DNA from: Planctomycetaceae bacterium
GTDB lineage: Bacteria; Planctomycetota; Planctomycetia; Pirellulales; Pirellulaceae
Direction of reading: 5' to 3'
Assembly: GCA_007127095.1 (NCBI GenBank)
Contig: SKZY01000089.1
Coordinates: forward strand, 1 to 33,517
DNA: 33,517 nucleotides
Shown piece after piece: positions 2,340 through 33,517 of this stretch. The first letter of the stretch is position 1, and the number at the start of each line of letters is the position of its first letter. A program made the translations under genes and the position numbers. The notes below the pieces were generated by a model. That model had not been told where the DNA came from and searched no databases. It saw nothing but the letters and a program-made list of their open reading frames with translations.

Positions 2340-3227
2340 ATGTTGCACCATTTGACGACCGAAGGCGTGAACCCGGCTTCGGAGCAGATCGATCGCTGTG
2401 GGGCCGATGAGATCGTCCAACTGATCCTCGCCGAAGACCGCAAAATCGCCGCTGCGGTCGCGCGGGTCGCCGACGACATCGCCCAGGCAATCGATCGGAT
2501 CGCCGCGACGCTACGCGGCGGAGGCCGACTGGTCTATCTCGGTGCGGGGACGAGCGGGCGACTCGGTGTGCTCGATGCCAGCGAGTGTCCGCCGACGTTC
2601 AACACCGATCCTGGTCAGGTCATCGGGCTGATCGCGGGCGGGCCCGACGCGCTGACGCGAGCGATCGAGGGGGCGGAGGATGACCCCGTGGCCGCCGTCG
2701 GCGATTTGCAACGGGTCGGGTTCAGCGACGCCGATGTGTTGGTCGGGATCGCCACCAGCGGACGGACTCCCTACGTTATCGGGGCGCTCCGTCATGCCAG
2801 GTCGATCGGCGCTACGACGATCGGGCTGGTATGCAATTCGCCTTCGGAAATCGATCGCTGGGCAGACGTGCTGATCGCCCCGATTCCGGGTCCGGAAATC
2901 ATCAGCGGCTCGACCCGCATGAAGGCGGGCACGGCCACCAAGATGGTGCTCAATATGTTGTCGACCGGCGCAATGATCCGACTCGGCAAGACCTACGGCA
3001 ACCTGATGGTCGACTTGCGGGCTACCAATACGAAGCTGACGCTGCGCTCCCGCCAGATCGTCGCGCGATTGACCGGATTGGCCGAAAGCGAAGCTGCACC
3101 GCTGCTCGATCGGGCCGGCGGCGAGGTCAAGACCGCGATCGTGATGCACCACCGCAGCGTTTCGGCTGAGGAGGCGAGACGGTTGCTCGAGCGGCACCAA
3201 GGTCACTTGCGGCAGGTGATTCGATGA
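2340..3227 (+). CDS. murQ: N-acetylmuramic acid 6-phosphate etherase MurQ
   Basis: A 295-residue SIS-domain lyase that removes D-lactate from MurNAc-6-phosphate to give GlcNAc-6-phosphate in peptidoglycan recycling. The family signature GAGTSGRLGVLDASECPPTF spans residues 68-87 and includes the catalytic-type glutamate (Glu82). The second signature, GSTRMKAGTATK, is at about 190-201, and the KTYGNLMVDLRATNTKL region follows. Length is typical of MurQ (about 300). The next gene, a BadF-type sugar kinase, overlaps by four bases (ATGA), which points to translational coupling and supports a cell-wall amino-sugar salvage role. No PTS transporter gene for MurNAc lies in this window. Confidence 0.95.
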   Translation: MLHHLTTEGVNPASEQIDRCGADEIVQLILAEDRKIAAAVARVADDIAQAIDRIAATLRGGGRLVYLGAGTSGRLGVLDASECPPTFNTDPGQVIGLIAGGPDALTRAIEGAEDDPVAAVGDLQRVGFSDADVLVGIATSGRTPYVIGALRHARSIGATTIGLVCNSPSEIDRWADVLIAPIPGPEIISGSTRMKAGTATKMVLNMLSTGAMIRLGKTYGNLMVDLRATNTKLTLRSRQIVARLTGLAESEAAPLLDRAGGEVKTAIVMHHRSVSAEEARRLLERHQGHLRQVIR

Positions 3228-4216
3228 GCGGCGGTGAGCCGGGCCGAGTGGCTGATGACAACGGCCCCTTCCTGATCGGGATCGACGGCGGCGGCACCAA
3301 GACCGAAGCGGTGATCGGCCGCAGGATCGAAACCGGCGACGCGGATCATAACGCTGCCGGTTGCAGCGACCCTTTCGCCGGACTTCAGATACTCGCCCGC
3401 GGCACGGCCGGACCGGCGAACCTGCAATCGGTCTCGGCCGATCAGGCCTGGCATCAGTGCCGCACCGCGATCGTCGCCGCCTTCGATTCGCTCCACTTGC
3501 CGGTCGGACAGATCGACGCTGTGGCGCTGGCGATGGCGGGTGAGGGGAGCCGGCCGCATCGCGAAGCGTTTGTCGCGGTCGTGCAAAGAGCCGGGCTGGC
3601 CGCACGGGTGATCGTCACGCATGACGCCCGACCGTTGATCGCCGCCGGTACCCCCAACGATTGCGGCGTAGCTCTGATCGCCGGTACCGGCTCGTTCGCC
3701 TACTGTCGGACCGCTGAAGGGGTTGAGGATCGTTGTGGCGGCTGGGGTTATTTGTACGGCGACGAAGGGAGCGGGTATGCGATCGCTGCGGCCGGCTTAC
3801 GGGCGGCAGTCAGGGCTGCCGACGGGCGCGGTGAACCGACCGAATTGCTGACCGCTTTCGGGCACTGGCTTGACGAACCGACCGCCACGGCCTGGTTGCC
3901 GCGACTGCGAACCTGGAACCCCGAACAGTTGGCCGGTGGTGCCAAGGTCGTACTTGAAGTCGCCGCTCGGGGCGACGCGGTCGCGAACGCGTTGATCGAT
4001 CGCGCGGCCGATCATTTGGCCCGACATTTAAAAGCGCTCTGGGATCGACGATTCGCGGGAAAACCGGTCAACCTTGCGCTCACCGGTGGCCTGCTGATCG
4101 GCGACCCGACGCTGCGAGAACGCGTCCTCAACCATTTCGTTCAGCGCGGTGGCGTCGTCGGCGAGTACCGCGTGATCACCCACCCGGTCGATACCGTCCT
4201 GACGCTACTCCGCTGA
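3224..4216 (+). CDS. BadF/BadG-family amino-sugar kinase (GlcNAc or MurNAc kinase-like)
   Basis: A 330-residue ASKHA-fold ATPase. The phosphate-1 motif IDGGGTKT is at residues 20-27, THDA at 132-135, the phosphate-2 motif AGTGSFAY at 153-160, and the typical GGWGYLYGDEGSGY segment at 172-185. These match N-acetylglucosamine kinase/BadF proteins. Its start codon overlaps the murQ stop, so it most likely phosphorylates an amino sugar such as GlcNAc or MurNAc released from peptidoglycan, which MurQ could then process. That assignment comes from context and family, and the sugar specificity cannot be read from the sequence. It is cytoplasmic. The gene ends 5 bases before the convergent lipoprotein gene, with no obvious terminator between them. 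Confidence 0.88.
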   Translation: MSGGEPGRVADDNGPFLIGIDGGGTKTEAVIGRRIETGDADHNAAGCSDPFAGLQILARGTAGPANLQSVSADQAWHQCRTAIVAAFDSLHLPVGQIDAVALAMAGEGSRPHREAFVAVVQRAGLAARVIVTHDARPLIAAGTPNDCGVALIAGTGSFAYCRTAEGVEDRCGGWGYLYGDEGSGYAIAAAGLRAAVRAADGRGEPTELLTAFGHWLDEPTATAWLPRLRTWNPEQLAGGAKVVLEVAARGDAVANALIDRAADHLARHLKALWDRRFAGKPVNLALTGGLLIGDPTLRERVLNHFVQRGGVVGEYRVITHPVDTVLTLLR

Positions 4217-4221
4217 TCGTC

Positions 4222-4476
4222 CTAGCGGCCGATCCAGGGCATTGAATCTTGGACGATCCGACTTCGCACCGGTTCAGGCAGCGGGTTCTCGTAACCCGGC
4301 GGACGCGCACCGGCTTCATACGGACCAATATCGTTTTGCGGATAGGGGTCGTGAACGACCGCCGAGGCTTGCTGCTGCTGGAGCGGCCCAGGCGGGGCGA
4401 ACCAATTCGTCCCCCGACATCCCAGGGCCGTCAGCGAGAGGGCCAACAGGGCGATCATGTTGAGGTTACGAAGCAT
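4222..4476 (-). CDS. Small predicted lipoprotein, 84 aa
   Basis: The protein starts MLRNLNMIALLALSLTALGC, a classic lipoprotein signal with LTALGC as lipobox and Cys20 as the lipidated residue. The mature part is short, proline- and glutamine-rich (PLQQQQ), and ends in SMPWIGR. No enzymatic motif is visible. The frame is open a further 90 codons upstream, but the lipobox placement fixes the start at 4476, and the upstream residues look non-coding. It is convergent with the kinase and divergent from mch. It is likely anchored in the envelope. I do not recognise a specific family. Confidence 0.7.
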   Translation of the reverse strand: MLRNLNMIALLALSLTALGCRGTNWFAPPGPLQQQQASAVVHDPYPQNDIGPYEAGARPPGYENPLPEPVRSRIVQDSMPWIGR

Positions 4477-4722
4477 GACGATCGTTTCCGGGAGCGAAGA
4501 TGATTCCGTATCGACGGTAGCAGAGTCGTCGATCACGGGCCAAGACGTTTTCAGGTGCTCGCTGAGTATCGATCCACGCCGAGTGACCGGGTGAGCGGAT
4601 TCCGGGTCGCCGCCCCAGTCTGCCGGTGGTGCGGTTGCGGCAGTGGCGGATGACACGGTCGCAACGCCTGGAAGCGATTCGCCCGCTTTACTCAGCCGAT
4701 CGAATCGGCCACATTTCTGAGC

Positions 4723-5706
4723 ATGCTGAACCACCAATCGTTTCAACTCTGTGCCGCCGCTGCCGATTCGGCGGTCGATGGCGAGACCGCATCGTCGTCA
4801 TCCGCGGCGATCTCGCGGGGGATCGCCAGACACAGCGTCGGCGGCGCGACTTTGCTCGACGCCGGTGTCGCCGTGACCGGATCGCTCGACGCCGGGCTGC
4901 TGATGTCGCGAGTCTGCCTGGGCGACCTGGCCGACGTCGGTTTTGCCTTGGAGGATGCCGATCGCTTCGCCAGCGATGTGGCGGTGACGGTCCGCAGCGA
5001 TTCACCGGTGGCAGCCTGTCTGGGCGGTCAGTACGCCGGGTGGCCGGTATCGGTCGACAAGTATTTTGCGATGGGTAGCGGTCCGATGCGTTTGGCGCGG
5101 GGCCGTGAAGAGATGTTGCAGGCACTCGACTTGTCCGAACGGCCCGAGCGGGTCGCGGGCGTGTTGGAGTCGACCGAGTTGCCATCCGCGGAAGTGATCA
5201 GCGCGATCGCCGAACAATGCCAGATCGCCCCCGATCGACTCGCGCTGATGATCGCCCCGGCAGGTTCCTTGGCCGGTACCGTTCAGGTCGTCGCCCGCAG
5301 CGTCGAAACATCACTGCACAAACTGCATACGCTCGGATTCGATGTCCGGACCGTCTTCTCGGCTTACGGGGTCGCCCCCTTGCCGCCGCCGGCGCGGCCC
5401 GATGATGTCGTCGGCGGGATCGGCCGTACGAACGATGCGATCCTCTACGGTGGCCGGGTGACGTTGTGGGTCGACGCCGACCAGGCGGCGGTCGATGCCG
5501 TGGCGGATTCGGTGCCGAGCACCGCATCGCGTGACCACGGCCGCCCCTTCGCCTCGATCTTCAAAGATTACGGCTACGATTTCTATCAAGTCGATCCCCA
5601 CCTGTTCAGCCCCGCCGTCGTCTCGATCGTCAATCGTCGCAGCGGGTTGACCCGCCGCTGCGGGGCGATTCAGACCGACGTGTTGCGGACGTCGTTCGGC
5701 ACATGA
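4723..5706 (+). CDS. mch: Methenyltetrahydromethanopterin cyclohydrolase Mch
   Basis: A 327-residue enzyme resembling Mch, which interconverts 5,10-methenyl- and 5-formyl-tetrahydromethanopterin (EC 3.5.4.27) in the H4MPT-linked C1 pathway. Recognisable features are the N-terminal GGATLLDAGV stretch, the CLGGQYAGWPVS segment, FAMGSGPMR near residue 120, the IAPAGSLAGTVQVVARSVET block and the C-terminal GRTNDAILYGG and FKDYGYDFYQVDPHLFSP motifs. Length is that of the family (about 310-330). H4MPT enzymes are known from archaea, methylotrophic proteobacteria and planctomycetes, so this gene supports the host assignment. The start has little ribosome-binding signal. The following ATP-grasp gene overlaps by four bases (ATGA), so at least three genes probably form one transcript. 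Confidence 0.93.
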   Translation: MLNHQSFQLCAAAADSAVDGETASSSSAAISRGIARHSVGGATLLDAGVAVTGSLDAGLLMSRVCLGDLADVGFALEDADRFASDVAVTVRSDSPVAACLGGQYAGWPVSVDKYFAMGSGPMRLARGREEMLQALDLSERPERVAGVLESTELPSAEVISAIAEQCQIAPDRLALMIAPAGSLAGTVQVVARSVETSLHKLHTLGFDVRTVFSAYGVAPLPPPARPDDVVGGIGRTNDAILYGGRVTLWVDADQAAVDAVADSVPSTASRDHGRPFASIFKDYGYDFYQVDPHLFSPAVVSIVNRRSGLTRRCGAIQTDVLRTSFGT

Positions 5707-6629
5707 GCCGACCGCAAGCGACCTCCGACCGGTTGTCGACGTCGGGACCGCGGTTGTTGGCGTTAGGACCGGGTGACGGTTGGCACGCCGACCGCTTGCG
5801 CACCGCGGCGACGCAGCTCGGTGGGACCTTGGTCTACGCCGCATACGAATCGTTGGCGGCTACGATCGATGCCAGCGGACGTCGGATCGCGACGAGTTCC
5901 GCGGGCGAGTTGACCGCTTTCGATGCCGTCCTCTGTCGTACAATGCCGGCCGGATCACTCGAACAGGTTTCGTTCCGACTGGCGGTCCTGCACGCCGCGT
6001 TCGCCGCTGGTGTGCGGTTGGTCAACCCGCCGCGGACGCTCGAATTGGCGATCGACAAGTACGCCACTTTGTCAATCGTCGCGTCGCTAGGCTATCGAGT
6101 CCCCGAAACGATCGTCGTCCAGTCACGCGGCGAGGCGCTCACTGCCTTCGATTCGCTCGGCGGCGACGTTGTGGTCAAGCCGATTTTCGGCGGCGAGGGC
6201 CGCGGCGTGATGCGGATCTGCGATCGCCAGCTCGCCTGGCATGCCTTTTCGACGTTGGAACGACTCGCCAGCGTGCTCTATGTTCAAAAGTTCGTCCCGC
6301 CCGGCGGCAGCGATATCCGGCTGTTGGTGATCGGCGACCGAGTGGTCGGTATCCGCAGGACAAACGACCGTGATTTCCGTACCAACGTCTCCGGCGGCGG
6401 CATCGGGCGAGCGATCGAACCGACCCCCGAAATGACCCAGCTCGCACTCCGGGTTGCGGCGACGATGGGATTGGAAATCGGTTCGGTCGATCTGATCGAT
6501 TGCGATCGCTACGGGCACGTCATAATCGAGGTCAATGCGGTGCCGGGCTGGAAGGGGGCTCAGGGCTGCTGTGATGTCGACCTGGCCGAGATGATGATCC
6601 GTCAATTGATTCGGGAGTCGAGTACGTGA
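5703..6629 (+). CDS. RimK-like ATP-grasp ligase in the mch operon
   Basis: A 308-residue ATP-grasp protein. VVKPIFGGEGRGVMRI (around residues 158-173) is the typical ATP-binding lysine/glycine-rich loop, and the end of the fold shows the acidic/Asn metal site in VIIEVNAVPGWKG (about 279-291). Such enzymes join a carboxylate to an amine with ATP. RimK-type genes are repeatedly found beside H4MPT/methanofuran C1 genes in bacteria, where glutamylation or a similar ligation in cofactor biosynthesis is the favoured role. Coupling to mch by ATGA overlap supports that here, but the substrate is inferred. It overlaps the next gene by four bases (GTGA). Confidence 0.85.
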   Translation: MSRPQATSDRLSTSGPRLLALGPGDGWHADRLRTAATQLGGTLVYAAYESLAATIDASGRRIATSSAGELTAFDAVLCRTMPAGSLEQVSFRLAVLHAAFAAGVRLVNPPRTLELAIDKYATLSIVASLGYRVPETIVVQSRGEALTAFDSLGGDVVVKPIFGGEGRGVMRICDRQLAWHAFSTLERLASVLYVQKFVPPGGSDIRLLVIGDRVVGIRRTNDRDFRTNVSGGGIGRAIEPTPEMTQLALRVAATMGLEIGSVDLIDCDRYGHVIIEVNAVPGWKGAQGCCDVDLAEMMIRQLIRESST

Positions 6630-8329
6630 CCACCGCCGATCACCAGGCCAATATCGCGGCCCGTTTGTCGATCTGGGCCAAACGCATCCCAGGCGGGATC
6701 GCGATCGCCGAACCCGAGTCGGCCGTACAGGCCGATGGGACCCGGTCGTATCGCCTGACCACCTTCGCCCAGCTTGATAGCGAGAGTGACCGGATCGCCC
6801 GTGGCCTACTCCGCTGGGGAGTCCGGCCGGGCATGCGGTTGGTGATGCTGGTCCCCTTCGGCTCGCTATTCATCCGCTTGACCTTCGCCCTGCTCAAGGC
6901 CGGGGTGACGGTTGTACTGATCGATCCCGGGATGGGACGGAAACACCTGGTCGATTGCCTCGCCGAGTCCGAACCGGACGGTTTTGTCGGGATCGCCAAG
7001 GCCCAGGCAATCCGGACGCTGCTGCGACACCGTTTTCCGACCGCCCGTTGGAACGTAACGGTCGGCGATCGCTGGTATCAACGGCGTTGGTTTTGGGGTG
7101 GCCGAACGCTGGGTCAAATCGTGGCGCTCGGCAGCAGCGAACCAGCCGTCACAGCCCCCGACGAATTGCCGACGATGAAGGCGAGCGATAACGCCGCGGT
7201 CATCTTTACCACCGGCAGCACGGGACCGCCCAAAGGTGTCGCCTATACCCACGGCACTTTCAACGCCCAAGTCGATCTGATCCGTGACCGCTACGACATC
7301 CACGCCGGCAGCCGAGACCTGGCCTGTTTCCCGCTGTTCGGACTGTTCGATAACGTGATGGGGGTGACCACCGTGATCCCCGATATGGACCCAACGCGGC
7401 CGGCGGACGTTAACCCCGAGCGGCTGTTCGAAGCGATCAACCACTGGGAAATCGACCAGGCATTCGGATCGCCCGCGCTCTGGCATCGAGTCGTCTCCTG
7501 GTGTGAACAGACCGGCAACGGCTTTCCGACGCTGCGGCGTGTGCTCTCGGCCGGCGCCCCGGTGCCCGCCGAAACGCTCCGAAAACTCCGTCGCTTCGTC
7601 CACCCCGATGCCGACATCATGACGCCCTACGGCGCCACCGAAGCGTTGCCAGTGGCCTCGATCGAGTCGCGACAGGTGATCGCCGAAACCGGGCCGGCCG
7701 CCGCCAAAGGACGCGGCGTCTGCGTCGGGACCCGCTTCGATCGGATCGAATGGAAGGTGATTCAGATCGACGACGGGCCGCTCGCATCGATCGCCCAAAC
7801 CGTCGAAATGCCGACCGGTAAGATCGGTGAACTGATGGTCGCCGGCCCCGTCGTCACCTCCCAATACGTGGTTCGCACCGATCAAAATGCCTTTCACAAG
7901 GTCGTCGATGGTGACCGCATCTGGCATCGGATGGGAGATGTCGGATATCTCGATGCCAACGACCAGTTCTGGTTCTGTGGCCGCAAAGGACACCGCGTGC
8001 GGAATGCGGGCAAGACCTGGTTCACGATCCCCTGCGAGGCCGTCTTCAACGTCCATCCAGCGGTCTATCGCAGCGCCTTGGTGGGACTCGGTCGGCCCGG
8101 TGAACAAACGCCGGTAATCATCGTCGAGCCGCATCCCGACCAGCGTCCAGTAGGGCCGGCTGCCAACTCGCGATTGATCAAAGAGCTGCAGGAATTGGCG
8201 GTGCGCAATCCGCTGACTCGGCGGATCGAAGACGTTCGGATCTATCCCGGCCGATTGCCGGTCGACATCCGTCACAACAGCAAAATTTTCCGCGAACGGC
8301 TCGCCGCGGAGATCAACCGAGTCGGGTAG
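6626..8329 (+). CDS. AMP-dependent synthetase, OleC-like (fatty acid CoA ligase family)
   Basis: A 567-residue ANL-superfamily adenylating enzyme. The core P-loop-like motif FTTGSTGPPKGVAYTHG is near residue 193, the YGATEALP motif near 336, GDVGYLD near 433, and a C-terminal lysine lies in NSKIFRERLA near 553. The NSKIFRE ending and overall layout resemble OleC, which makes beta-lactones from beta-hydroxy acids in long-chain olefin synthesis. No oleA, oleB or oleD is visible in the window, so olefin synthesis is not shown, and a different carboxylate substrate is possible. The start is GTG inside the stop of the ATP-grasp gene, so translation is coupled to the C1 cluster, which is an unexpected partner. 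Confidence 0.82.
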   Translation: MTTADHQANIAARLSIWAKRIPGGIAIAEPESAVQADGTRSYRLTTFAQLDSESDRIARGLLRWGVRPGMRLVMLVPFGSLFIRLTFALLKAGVTVVLIDPGMGRKHLVDCLAESEPDGFVGIAKAQAIRTLLRHRFPTARWNVTVGDRWYQRRWFWGGRTLGQIVALGSSEPAVTAPDELPTMKASDNAAVIFTTGSTGPPKGVAYTHGTFNAQVDLIRDRYDIHAGSRDLACFPLFGLFDNVMGVTTVIPDMDPTRPADVNPERLFEAINHWEIDQAFGSPALWHRVVSWCEQTGNGFPTLRRVLSAGAPVPAETLRKLRRFVHPDADIMTPYGATEALPVASIESRQVIAETGPAAAKGRGVCVGTRFDRIEWKVIQIDDGPLASIAQTVEMPTGKIGELMVAGPVVTSQYVVRTDQNAFHKVVDGDRIWHRMGDVGYLDANDQFWFCGRKGHRVRNAGKTWFTIPCEAVFNVHPAVYRSALVGLGRPGEQTPVIIVEPHPDQRPVGPAANSRLIKELQELAVRNPLTRRIEDVRIYPGRLPVDIRHNSKIFRERLAAEINRVG

Positions 8330-30111: not shown

Positions 30112-31440
30112 TTGACGCACACCGCCTACGTCCATCGTGTGATCAATCTGCTCGATCCCGCCGGCGATACCCTGCTCAATCTCGACCACGATGAGGCGGT
30201 CCGCCGGGTGGCCAGCGGCGACCCGGCAGCGATCGACCGCATCGACGGGCACTTCGCGATCCTCGCCCAGGTCGGTCGCTCGGTCCACATGGCCCGCTCG
30301 ATCGGACGACCGATGCGCTACTTTTTGGCCAAACGCGCCGAAGGTCCCTGCTTGATCGTCGCCGAACGGATCGATCAACTCCGCGACCGACTCGCCGCCG
30401 AAGGACTCGACGACCAATTCCATCCGTCCTACACACGGATGGTCCCCGCCCACCACCTGGTCAAAATCGAACTGGTCGGTTGCCCCGACCCGAACCCCGA
30501 CTACCAACGGTTCTTTACCCCGACCCGCAATCAACTGCCGACCGATCTCGACCAGATCGGTGCCGCCTACATCGGCCGCATGGCCGAGGCCTGCTCACGT
30601 TGGCTCGATCGGATCGATCCCCGCGAACCGCTCGGCGTGATGTTCTCCGGCGGCATCGATAGCGGCGCCGTCCTGATCGTGCTCCAACACCTGTTGCTCG
30701 CCCGCGGCCAGGCCCCGACACGCCTCAAAGCGTTTACCCTGTCTGCCGGTGAGCGGTCCGCCGACGCCGAACAGGCCCGTGATTTTTTGCGGCAAACCGG
30801 CCTGGAAATGCTCGGCGAAGTCCTCGACTGCGAAACCGAACGGCTCGATTGGCGACAAGCCATCCGCGTGATCGAAGACTACAAGCCGCTCGACGTTCAA
30901 GCCGCGACGATGATGCTGGCCTCTTGCCGGCTGATCCGTGAGCGCTACCCCGATTGGAAATACTTAGTCGACGGCGACGGCGGTGATGAAAACCTGAAAG
31001 ATTACCCGATCGAGGAAAATCCCGAACTGACGATCCGCAGCGTGCTGAACAACCTGATGCTCTACCAAGAAGGCTGGGGCGTTCACGCGATCAAACATTC
31101 GCTGGTCCACAGCGGCGGCCAGAGCCGTGGCCAGGTCCGTTCCTTCGCCCCGGCCCAGGCCTGTGGCTTCCAGACGTTCAGCCCGTTCACCTTGCCCCGC
31201 GTGATCGAAGTCGCCGAGGCGATCCCGTTTATCGAATTGACCGAGTGGGACCACCAGCGGCTCTACGCGCTGAAAGGCGAAGTCGTCTCCCGCGGTGTCA
31301 AACAGATCACCGGCGTCGAGATGCCGATTTTCCAAAAACGCCGCTTTCAACACGGAGCCGTCGACGAACCGGCTTTCGATCGCTTGTTCCCCACCGCCGA
31401 ACGTGAATACCGGGCCGAGTTCCTGCGAGCATGGAATTGA
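30112..31440 (+). CDS. Asparagine-synthase-like PP-loop enzyme lacking the glutaminase Cys
   Basis: A 442-residue protein resembling class B asparagine synthase. The PP-loop motif SGGIDS is at 179-184, and a metal/ATP site like DGDGGDE lies near 286. [18 protein letters not shown] matches the family C-terminus. The first domain keeps the glutaminase-like [19 protein letters not shown] layout (45-63) but the start is TTG with the sequence MTHTAY, so there is no Cys2 nucleophile for glutamine hydrolysis. It likely uses another amine donor, as beta-lactam synthetase does, or acts as an adenylating ligase on an acid. The gene is 20 bases after ribH and 10 before a radical SAM gene, so the two enzymes may act in sequence. 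The substrate is unknown. Confidence 0.8.
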
Positions 31441-31449
31441 ACCGGTTCG

Positions 31450-32499
31450 ATGAACAGCCTGCCTGACTCGTCCGCCGCGACGCGGGCTCGAGTCGAATCG
31501 CTCCGCGGGCCGAAACGCCCGGTCGATCCGTATCGCCCGTCGGCCGTCATCCGCGAATCGGAGGCGACGAGGGGTGCCCGGGCCGCTGACTCCACCGCGG
31601 CTGACGCCGCCGCGGATAACACCATCGATCCGCCGCTGGCCGATGTCGTGTCAGTCTTCCTGACCGGGGCCGAGTGCCCGCTGCGGTGCACGATGTGCGA
31701 CCTCTGGCAAAATACACTCGACGGCCCGACACCGCCGGGGGCGCTGCCGCGGCAACTGGCGATCGCTTTGGCCGATCTGCCAGCCCAGCCCCAGCCCCAA
31801 CAACAGCCCCAGCCCCGCTGGATCAAACTCTACAACGCCAGCAATTTCTTCGACCGCCGGGCCGTACCGCGACAGGACTGGGACGCGATCGCCGCAGCGG
31901 TGCAGCCGTTTTGCCGGGTGATCGTCGAGAACCATCCGCGTTGGGTGAACGACTCGGTCGCCGAATTTGCCCGCCGGATCACCGGCCGCCTCGAAGTCGC
32001 GATGGGGCTGGAAATCGCCGACGATGCCTCGCTGAGGTTGCTCGACAAGCGAGCGACGCTGGCCGATTTCTCGGCCGCCGCCGATCGACTGCGAAGTTAT
32101 GACGTCGACCTGCGACTGTTCGTGATGTTGCAACCACCGGGCACCGCGGCCTCGGCGGCGACCGCCCGAGTGCTCGACTCACTGCGGTTCGCCGAGCAAC
32201 TCGGGGCCCGCCACGTCAGCGTGATCCCGACGCGCGGCGGCAACGGGATGCTGGAATCGCTCGCCGCAGAAGGTCTCTTCTCGCCGCCGACCGCCGGTCA
32301 ACTCGAAGCGACGATCGAGGCGGCGTTGGCCTGCCGATTCGAGAGCGTGATTACCGCCGACCTCTGGGATTGGGACCGGCTCAGCGGCCACTGCGCGACC
32401 TGTCGCCAGCCGAGACGCGAACGCCTCCAGCAGATAAACCTGACCCAACGCCCCCAACCGCCGCACCAGTCCCCAGCGGCGGGTTGCGATTGCCGATAG
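31450..32499 (+). CDS. Radical SAM enzyme, RaSEA-like
   Basis: A 349-residue radical SAM protein. The first 62 residues are low-complexity, and the [4Fe-4S] motif is CPLRCTMC (Cys76, Cys80, Cys83). A Pro/Gln-rich linker (PAQPQPQQQPQPR, 111-123) precedes KLYNASNFFDRRAVP, where the pattern resembles archaeal RaSEA (TIGR01210-type archaeosine enzyme). Two extra Cys pairs lie at the C-terminus, HCATC (Cys315, Cys318) and CDC (Cys346, Cys348), and may bind zinc or a second cluster. Bacterial members have no agreed function. Coupled to the asparagine-synthase-like gene, it may modify a product of that enzyme. It is the last gene of the run; the REP/RAYT locus starts about 90 bases later. Confidence 0.82.
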   Translation: MNSLPDSSAATRARVESLRGPKRPVDPYRPSAVIRESEATRGARAADSTAADAAADNTIDPPLADVVSVFLTGAECPLRCTMCDLWQNTLDGPTPPGALPRQLAIALADLPAQPQPQQQPQPRWIKLYNASNFFDRRAVPRQDWDAIAAAVQPFCRVIVENHPRWVNDSVAEFARRITGRLEVAMGLEIADDASLRLLDKRATLADFSAAADRLRSYDVDLRLFVMLQPPGTAASAATARVLDSLRFAEQLGARHVSVIPTRGGNGMLESLAAEGLFSPPTAGQLEATIEAALACRFESVITADLWDWDRLSGHCATCRQPRRERLQQINLTQRPQPPHQSPAAGCDCR

Positions 32500-32590
32500 C
32501 TCCGCCTGCTGGGATCGCTTGACAAACGAGACCAACTTCTCGCCTCCCTGCAACACCGAGCGTTTCGAGGTGAACTCTGATGGCGGAACA

Positions 32591-32619
32591 TCGTCGCCTT
32601 TCGCTCCGCGAAAGTAGCG
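32591..32619 (+). repeat. REP copy 1
   Basis: A 29-base element containing CTTTCGC-TCC-GCGAAAG, a perfect 7-bp stem with a 3-base loop at 32598-32614, then TAGCG. It is identical over all 29 bases to REP copy 3 at 33457-33485. It lies downstream of the radical SAM gene. Confidence 0.85.
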
Positions 32620-32730
32620 CTAAGATGGTGATTCAAGTCGACGACATTTTTTTGCGGATAGTATGTAAATATGTGCGTGCGGCGTCCAAGATTGCCGGCG
32701 TTTTTCATTTCCTAAAACGGAGGTTTTGTT

Positions 32731-32757
32731 CGCTACTTTCACGTAGTGAAAGACGAC
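32731..32757 (-). repeat. REP copy 2 (inverted orientation)
   Basis: The reverse complement reads GTCGTCTTTCACTACGTGAA and continues AGTAGCG. The stem CTTTCAC-GTA-GTGAAAG at 32736-32752 is perfect. Compared with copies 1 and 3, the loop and stem tip changed (CGC to CAC and GCG to GTG) with pairing kept, a compensatory substitution. It sits just before the RAYT start. Confidence 0.82.
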
Positions 32758-32779
32758 TATTGCGACTGTGGAGTAGCCA

Positions 32780-33483
32780 GTGACTGAACCTAAAAGACTC
32801 GGTGAACTTTTTGATCCGAAGGCGGATTTGTCGATCAGCGAACATTGTCGCCCGCATTGGTCGCAGGCGGGTGCGATTGTCTTCATCACTTTGCGAACGG
32901 CGGATTCGATTCCCCAAGAAGTCCTCGATCGCTGGGAACGTGAAAAGCGAGACTGGATGCGACGACATGATTGCCCGGTCGATCGGCATTGGTCAGAGGT
33001 TCTTCCGACGCTTGAGCCTGCCATAAAAGCTCAGTTCAAGAAAACATTCAATCGATGCCGTGAAGACTTTCTGGATACCTGTCACGGTGCGTGTGTTCTG
33101 CGCAAACGTGAACTCGCAAAGATCGTGGCCGATACGCTACTGCATTTCGATGGCGAGCGTTATCGGCTGGGCGACTTCATCGTGATGCCGAATCACGTCC
33201 ACCTGCTAGCCGCGTTTCCATCCGAGGATACGATGGGCGCTCAGTGCGATTCGTGGACGCATTACTCGGCTTGGAAAATCAATCTTGCCCTCGGGCGGAA
33301 AGGTAAGTTCGGCGGAAAGGTAAGTTCTGGCAACAAGAGCCCTTTGACCATTTGGTTCGCAGTCCCGAGCAATACGAGTATCTGTGCAAATACATTCGGG
33401 ACAATGGCACAAAGGCTGAGTTGCCAGAGAACGAATATTTGTATCGAGAGTACGGATCGTCGCCTTTCGCTCCGCGAAAGTAG
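32780..33483 (+). pseudogene. RAYT (REP-associated tyrosine transposase), frameshifted
   Basis: Translation from GTG 32780 (in-frame stop just upstream at 32774; GGAG seven bases before the start) gives a Y1 HUH transposase of the REP-associated group. The HUH motif PNHVHLL has His139 and His141, and the QCDSWTHYSAWKINLALGRK segment is typical. After KGKF the frame breaks because GGCGGAAAGGTAAGTTC (17 bp) is duplicated in tandem at 33294-33310 and 33311-33327. The second frame resumes WQQEPFDHLVRSPEQYEYLC and ends SSPFAPRK at 33483. The conserved tyrosine region (YEYLCKYIRDNG) lies after the break, so the product probably lost activity. Without the duplication the protein would be about 228 residues. 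The REP element at 33457-33485 encodes its last residues and stop. Confidence 0.9.
33294..33327 (+). repeat. 17-bp tandem duplication inside the RAYT gene
   Basis: Two identical, adjacent copies of GGCGGAAAGGTAAGTTC at 33294-33310 and 33311-33327. Removing one restores the frame GRKGKFWQQEPF through the rest of the gene. Seventeen is not a multiple of three, so the duplication is the inactivating lesion. Confidence 0.92.
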
Positions 33484-33485
33484 CG
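33457..33485 (+). repeat. REP copy 3 overlapping the RAYT 3' end
   Basis: It is identical over 29 bases to copy 1, and the stem CTTTCGC-TCC-GCGAAAG is perfect. In the pre-duplication frame it encodes the last residues SSPFAPRK and the TAG stop at 33481-33483, so REP and transposase sequence are merged. Confidence 0.88.
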
Positions 33486-33507
33486 AATGCATGGCGACTG
33501 GGCACGA

Positions 33508-33517
33508 CGCTACTTTC
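33508..33517 (-). repeat. REP copy 4, cut by the window edge
   Basis: CGCTACTTTC at the extreme end equals the first ten bases of REP copy 2 in its plus-strand orientation, so a fourth copy inverted relative to copy 3 probably starts here. With copy 3 it would form a head-to-head REP pair (BIME). The remainder lies outside the window. Confidence 0.55.

Follow-up and report, generated by a model that had tools for sequence, protein, structure and literature searches.

We report three co-occurring genes, two of which lie side by side in the window, that is, the whole stretch of 33,517 nucleotides from a Planctomycetaceae bacterium analysed here (contig SKZY01000089.1, assembly GCA_007127095.1). 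They encode a ligase of the asparagine-synthetase fold that lacks a glutaminase site (30112..31440, forward strand), a radical S-adenosylmethionine (SAM) enzyme related to RaSEA (31450..32499, forward strand) and a flavin adenine dinucleotide (FAD) protein homologous to the halogenase PltM, whose gene lies outside the window in the same genome (G000:C329:4456-5943). The three genes very probably act as one functional unit, and the two in the window recur together in many aquatic bacteria. Our preferred reading, to which we assign a probability of about 0.5, is a small-molecule pathway of three enzymes that includes an amide ligation; the coupling is observed directly in the genomes, and from it we infer the chemistry and the product. 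The trio is a candidate for an undescribed pathway: we found no description of it in the openly licensed PMC literature, although one may exist elsewhere, and the available parts of PMC3784947, PMC11298593, PMC12715798 and PMC6424973 do not describe it. The original prediction, made from the letters of the window and their open reading frames, had named the first two genes as an enzyme pair; the coupling it proposed stands, but it had overlooked the co-occurring PltM-type gene, so the pair becomes a trio.

Co-occurrence was assessed in 146 genomes of the order and 294 genomes of the phylum, two sets with few genomes in common (e.g. G000 and G053). At the phylum level, the ligase (E <= 1e-60) and the radical SAM enzyme (E <= 1e-20) were each found in 13 of the 294 genomes, and the FAD protein in 17 at E <= 1e-40, namely 13 strong matches (E <= 1e-170) and four between 1.8e-91 and 5.1e-73; the ligase, radical SAM and strong FAD sets are the identical 13 genomes. 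At the order level, 23/146 genomes matched the ligase at E <= 0.001, 20 of them at E <= 3.2e-172, and the other three (7.8e-6 to 7.2e-4) were set aside as general AsnB relatives. The radical SAM enzyme also matched 23/146 at E <= 0.001, 18 at E <= 9.6e-40, the other five (1.1e-4 to 9.9e-4) being set aside, and the FAD protein matched 116/146 at E <= 0.001, of which 18 reached E <= 1.2e-41 and the next only 9.1e-17. All 18 radical SAM genomes and all 18 FAD genomes fall inside the 20 ligase genomes. TIGR01210, used as an independent profile, picked out exactly the 18 radical SAM genomes among the 146 (E <= 2e-12; the next match is at 7.5e-9). The two ligase genomes without a radical SAM match are explicable because their contigs end: the G040 contig breaks off 6 bases past the FAD gene, at the place that holds the radical SAM gene in its congener G087, and only 9 bases separate the G128 ligase from the end of its contig. 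The functional coupling of the first two genes, proposed earlier with co-occurrence in planctomycetes as its check, is thus borne out in both sets. Furthermore, six of the 18 order genomes with both ligase and radical SAM genes keep them apart, either on separate contigs (G004, G133, G117, G113) or at distances of about 610 and 860 kb (G121, G137), and unlinked pairs also occur in the phylum set (G232, G358), so that co-occurrence reflects more than adjacency. Hypergeometric probabilities were about 4e-21 for the order and 2e-15 at the genus level (14/14 radical SAM genera within 15 ligase genera of 88), values that are too small because the carriers are related.

The association extends beyond this phylum. 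The ligase alignment, run against named genomes, returned at least 592 candidate stretches, of which at least 457 encoded a relative at E <= 1e-3; the best 80 of these were analysed, with ligases 59-75% identical to that of the window and with complete and cultured genomes among them. Within these 80 loci, 77 of which offered room of at least 900 bases, the radical SAM gene lies directly 3' of the ligase on the same strand and within 800 bases in 33, the FAD gene is present in 24, and the order ligase, radical SAM, FAD is found in 22. This row spans three phyla, including Roseithermus sacchariphilus (Rhodothermota; complete genome, ligase 70% identical to that of the window) and Parafilimonas terrae (Bacteroidota; 63%), where the three genes have no other recognised partner. 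Across the 39 genomes carrying all three, the protein distance matrices are correlated (Mantel r 0.69, 0.69 and 0.58; 0/2000 permutations each), and for each of the three families the closest relative of the Roseithermus protein comes from one and the same locus, L130. The full-length recurrence of both window genes in other genomes excludes chance open reading frames (ORFs). Searches of a plasmid collection for the ligase and of a phage collection for the radical SAM enzyme gave no match.

The ligase has 442 residues and a TTG start. Its sole Pfam match is PF00733 (Asn_synthase; 51 bits, cut-off 21), a family matched by all 43 aligned relatives at E <= 0.01, and it scores 45.8 bits with TIGR01536, the glutamine-hydrolysing asparagine synthase model, below the cut-off of 267.1. 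Sequence is well conserved, mean column identity being 73% among 20 full-length relatives from the order and 70% among the 43 from several phyla. The ATP-site motifs are invariant in 43/43: the PP-loop SGGIDS at residues 179-184 (30646..30663, +), which had been recognised earlier, keeps S179, G180, G181, D183 and S184, and DGGDE at residues 289-293 (30976..30990, +), preceded by an invariant G288, stands where E. coli AsnB has EGSDE. K409, R411, Q413 and G415 are equally invariant and presumably echo the K-x-x-F-x-x-G of AsnB around its catalytic lysine, a resemblance only, since the two were not paired in the alignment. The glutaminase segment is gone: in the alignment to E. coli AsnB, the ligase family lacks the N-terminal segment with the glutaminase cysteine, which we take to hold the glutamine-binding residues as well. 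The reading of this protein as an AsnB-type ligase with a dead glutaminase and no Cys2 therefore holds. Reading upstream from the TTG at 30112, one meets neither a start codon nor a cysteine before the in-frame stop at a distance of 14 codons, and residue 2 is a cysteine in 0/43 relatives, which makes a hidden AsnB-type Cys2 after another start very unlikely.

A normal asparagine synthetase that happens to adjoin an unrelated gene, with co-occurrence due to shared ancestry alone, would agree with the PF00733 membership and with carriers clustered in few families. The score of 45.8 against 267.1 bits, the co-occurrence of the genes even when unlinked and the recurrence of the row in three phyla argue against it, and we consider it extremely improbable.

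Structural comparison places the ligase among several known enzymes. A search of solved structures with the single sequence gave no match, and one with the family profile gave ASNS at 8e-6. The AlphaFold2 model (predicted local distance difference test score, pLDDT, 88.0) superimposes residues 4-442 onto human ASNS from residue 37 (Z 25.2, root-mean-square deviation (rmsd) 3.6, 387 aligned) and residues 6-442 onto beta-lactam synthetase (Z 25.0, rmsd 3.3, 370 aligned), with E. coli AsnB at Z 24.8 (rmsd 3.3, 362 aligned) and carbapenam synthetase at Z 21.4 (rmsd 3.7, 383 aligned). In this model the N-domain is what is left of an AsnB-type glutaminase domain. As the scores for ASNS, beta-lactam synthetase and AsnB are tied, the fold leaves the reaction of the ligase undecided. 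The noted likeness to beta-lactam synthetase is thus real at the level of fold, and a ligase closing a ring within one molecule, with the radical SAM enzyme and the halogenase tailoring the lactam, would suit both the Z scores of beta-lactam (25.0, tied with 25.2 for ASNS) and carbapenam synthetase (21.4) and the fact that these enzymes likewise lack a working glutaminase. Nevertheless, the GDGGDE loop of the ligase is near the GEGSDE of E. coli AsnB, identity to the beta-lactam and carbapenam synthetases is 11-18%, and Asp289, which we take to occupy the position of the catalytic tyrosine of lactam formers, is kept in 43/43. Lactam synthesis is in our view quite unlikely.

The radical SAM gene begins with an ATG on the same strand, 9 bases after the ligase stop codon (ten had been counted earlier), and encodes 349 residues. 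The cluster motif CPLRCTMC at residues 76-83 (31675..31698, +) is as originally described, and its CX3CX2C pattern is present in 47/47 relatives. The general Pfam Radical_SAM model matches weakly (14.5 bits, cut-off 29.5), and solved-structure searches returned only E >= 0.28 with the single sequence and E >= 0.13 with the profile. The closest match of the predicted structure (pLDDT 92.6) is Elp3 (Z 16.4, rmsd 3.8, 253 aligned), followed 1 to 2 Z lower by other radical SAM barrels (biotin synthase Z 15.4, HydE Z 14.9); the motif together with this modelled barrel places the protein in the radical SAM superfamily. RaSEA is indeed the nearest named family, as proposed: TIGR01210 is the best match, though at 69 bits it is far under the cut-off of 212.15, and it was matched by 47/47 relatives (best 1.8e-35), with TIGR01212 (MnmL) matched by 16/47. 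The two additional C-terminal cysteine pairs are present in the window protein, as CxxC at residues 315-318 (32392..32403, +) and a terminal CxC at 346-348 (32485..32493, +). When 50 related frames were followed to their stop codons, some CxxC was kept in 41 and two pairs in 38 (38/47 and 30/47, respectively, in the trimmed alignment). Nine frames have no pair (L071, L072, L073, L074, L123, L137, L159, L187, L192), including linked (L123, L137, L187, L192) and unlinked genes (L071, L072, L074) and one at a contig end (L073), indicating that the pairs are dispensable.

The kinship of this enzyme raises the question of an RNA substrate. In such a scheme the set would amidate or amidinate a tRNA base, with the flavoprotein oxidising or halogenating an RNA base. 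The nearest radical SAM families are tRNA enzymes (RaSEA in 47/47, MnmL in 16/47), and Elp3 is the best fold, though just 1 to 2 Z ahead of further radical SAM barrels. The distribution, however, is patchy (13/294), and the archaeosine partner ArcTGT exceeded its cut-off in 0/146 genomes. Additionally, a gene close to RaSEA on Streptomyces plasmids sits amid P450, SHMT, glycosyltransferase and carbamoyltransferase genes. For the tRNA substrate suggested originally we found no positive evidence beyond the radical SAM kinship, and we regard RNA modification as very doubtful.

The archaeosine pathway in the strict sense is not supported, with 0/146 genomes over the RaSEA cut-off and 0/146 over that of TIGR00432 (ArcTGT, 350 bits); lower TIGR00432 matches in 138/146 order genomes are expected from bacterial tRNA-guanine transglycosylase (TGT). 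Three TGT-like proteins (G026:C140, G008:C242, G129:C159) reached 188-210 bits for archaeosine TGT, the others listed for the order being at or below 135, and are perhaps relatives of the TGTs of DNA modification. A link to 7-deazaguanine was dropped, QueC being present in 145/146 order genomes and hence uninformative. The Streptomyces plasmids pFRL3 and pFRL5 (L213 11929-18579 and L214 5929-12587) carry the bacterial protein close to RaSEA, at 172.6 bits for the pFRL3 copy, flanked by a regulator on one side and by the P450, SHMT, glycosyltransferase 9 and carbamoyltransferase genes on the other. This locus is perhaps an uncharacterised natural-product cluster; RaSEA relatives thus occur in natural-product-like gene groups, and the family is not necessarily tied to tRNA.

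Neighbour clustering revealed one further recurrent family, the FAD protein, directly 3' of the radical SAM gene in many loci. All 35 relatives match PF04820, and the family profile finds PltM first among solved structures (6bza, 4.7e-80), then CtcP (7v0b, 1.9e-74), over about 400 aligned residues. In PltM, according to the available part of PMC6424973, the K87A mutant is inactive. Lys87 aligns with a lysine invariant in 35/35 FAD proteins. Flavin halogenases carry a WxWxIP motif, and at this site the first tryptophan is kept in 35, the second in 34 and a following leucine or isoleucine in 35 of the 35, but the final proline in only 3. We think it rather likely that the third enzyme carries out a halogenation. 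A PltM-type third gene shifts the likely role of the set from tRNA to a small aromatic molecule, and we think it rather likely that the target is a small molecule and not RNA or protein.

No further family recurring beside the trio was judged specific; the DUF1501-like and sulfatase-like genes that recur nearby are common in planctomycetes. Long FG-GAP/TPR and CRTAC-like genes lie near the trio at L052, L055, L063/L112 and L066, in two families of the order, through wider linkage or chance, and FG-GAP/TPR genes are common to G071, G101, G087 and G040. No defence model matched at E <= 0.01. A type III polyketide synthase (PKS) product such as an alkylresorcinol was rejected as an obligate substrate. 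PF00195 (E <= 1e-10) occurs in 60/146 order genomes, 14/20 with the ligase against 46/126 others (Fisher p 0.0066, kinship uncorrected), and has no match in six ligase genomes (G071, G101, G083, G129, G059, G040), showing that a type III PKS is not required.

We propose the following order of events for the small-molecule pathway. The ligase would activate a carboxylate with ATP and join to it an amine taken directly, since it obtains no ammonia from glutamine. The radical SAM enzyme would then act on the N-linked adduct, most likely breaking a C-N bond so that only the nitrogen is left, and the flavoprotein would halogenate an electron-rich ring of the molecule, a PltM-type partner pointing to an electron-rich aromatic substrate. 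Because no biosynthetic genes are recognisable beside the trio in the three phyla where it recurs, many bacteria probably share this substrate. RaSEA cleaves the C-N bond of a lysine adduct, and a ligate-then-cleave sequence by analogy with ArcS and RaSEA acting with lysine is a tentative possibility. In the available text of PMC11298593, Thermococcus ArcS attaches lysine to preQ0; neither it nor two further archaeal ArcS enzymes use ammonium, asparagine or glutamine, and RaSEA complexed with ArcS converts the adduct to archaeosine. More speculatively, and with lower odds, an amino acid instead of glutamine could supply nitrogen to a small aromatic acid; the ligase would attach it by its amine, the radical SAM enzyme would remove its carbon part and the halogenase would yield a halogenated amide.

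Several observations weigh against this interpretation. The carriers are clustered, all 13 of the phylum set belonging to two families, and relatedness inflates both the co-occurrence and the Mantel figures, which were computed without a species tree. Genome G004 has ligase and radical SAM genes without an FAD match of the trio's clade. Among the best 80 loci, 47 of the fetched stretches, which were all that was searched, lack the radical SAM gene, and six loci with ligase and radical SAM genes and more than 4 kb of room (L117, L138, L159, L160, L187, L192) have no FAD gene in the stretch. The ArcS-RaSEA precedent is itself non-uniform, as ArcS of M. jannaschii reportedly accepts ammonium, asparagine or glutamine (PMC11298593, in the part available). 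With regard to the third enzyme, most FAD proteins have LR in place of the IP of WxWxIP (Arg 28/35, Pro 3/35). Moreover, the best NCBIfam match of the Parafilimonas protein is the peptide hydroxylase QhpG (75 bits, cut-off 240), above the halogenase CmlS. The FAD protein may be a monooxygenase instead of a halogenase, although the solved QhpG-type enzyme falls far behind PltM with the FAD profile (9.2e-9 versus 4.7e-80).

The QhpG match also bears on modification of a peptide or protein, in which the ligase would resemble a lasso or macrolactam cyclase and the other two enzymes would act on a ribosomally made precursor or form a cofactor derived from a protein. AsnB-fold cyclases, radical SAM enzymes and halogenases all occur in pathways of ribosomally synthesised and post-translationally modified peptides, which speaks for this scheme, as do the sub-cut-off QhpG match, GoxB and LodB lower in the same list, and a macrolactam cyclase model weakly matched by 2/43 ligases. 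In the 15 largest clusters, however, no conserved small ORF adjoins the genes; the small ORFs present were unconvincing and read as overlapping frames of larger neighbours, with an unlinked precursor lying outside that search. Neither a precursor-binding nor a SPASM model is among the NCBIfam matches listed for the radical SAM enzyme. We judge peptide or protein modification to be unlikely.

The small-molecule pathway we favour would join three enzyme subfamilies for which we found no study, tied to one function by genomic evidence. As the ligase is common and its carriers include cultured and complete genomes, the product is directly testable. Ligation followed by cleavage, if true, would explain why an AsnB-fold enzyme was able to lose its ammonia source and would place RaSEA-type chemistry outside archaeal tRNA. 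An amino acid as nitrogen donor, if true, would provide a small-molecule counterpart of archaeosine chemistry, encoded by a three-gene cluster that ordinary cluster rules may miss.

The window holds further features. Upstream of the ligase lie a rho-like gene (by reading only), coaE and ribH (CoaE and DMRL synthase by Pfam); tblastn recovered the adjoining ribH at none of 114 related loci, the flanks being short in many of them. Positions 32590-33517 contain a hairpin repeat that occurs twice in direct orientation, at 32590 and 33456, and in inverted orientation around 32729-32760. These repeats surround an ORF (32780-33517) that runs off the contig, has no Pfam match at 1e-4 and contains a PNHVHL stretch reminiscent of transposases associated with repetitive extragenic palindromes. 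Farther upstream, 3224-8329 carries a row of genes for a BadF-type ATPase, a methenyl-tetrahydromethanopterin cyclohydrolase (PF02289), a RimK-type ATP-grasp enzyme and an AMP-binding enzyme, and looks like a cluster for tetrahydromethanopterin-dependent C1 transfer.

The closest known systems compare as follows. The ligase shares with AsnB and ASNS the two-domain fold over residues 4-442, the SGGxDS motif and a similar loop (GDGGDE, against GEGSDE in AsnB), but it has neither Cys2 nor the beginning of the glutaminase domain and scores 45.8 against 267.1 bits. With the beta-lactam and carbapenam synthetases it has in common the AsnB fold and a dead glutaminase (Z 25.0 and 21.4), whereas Asp289 presumably replaces their tyrosine, identity is 11-18% and the partners differ. 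The third enzyme aligns with PltM and CtcP over about 400 residues and keeps the catalytic lysine, but mostly has LR for the expected IP, and no phloroglucinol or tetracycline genes were recognised beside it. ArcS and RaSEA likewise pair a direct-amine ligase with a RaSEA-family enzyme (PMC11298593, available part), direct amine use being our proposal for the present ligase. ArcS is homologous to ArcTGT according to the same partial source, while the ligase here has the AsnB fold; the window's radical SAM enzyme reaches 69 against 212.15 bits, a halogenase homologue is added and no ArcTGT exceeds its cut-off. Finally, in ammosamide biosynthesis the putative asparagine synthetase Amm20 is proposed to amidate and the flavin halogenase Amm3 chlorinates (PMC12715798, available part). 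That pathway differs in its scaffold peptide, its PEARLs and the lack of the cysteine motif in Amm10, the only radical SAM-like protein named in that part, but, in the same portion of that source, it likewise brings an AsnB-like enzyme and a flavin halogenase together on one small molecule.

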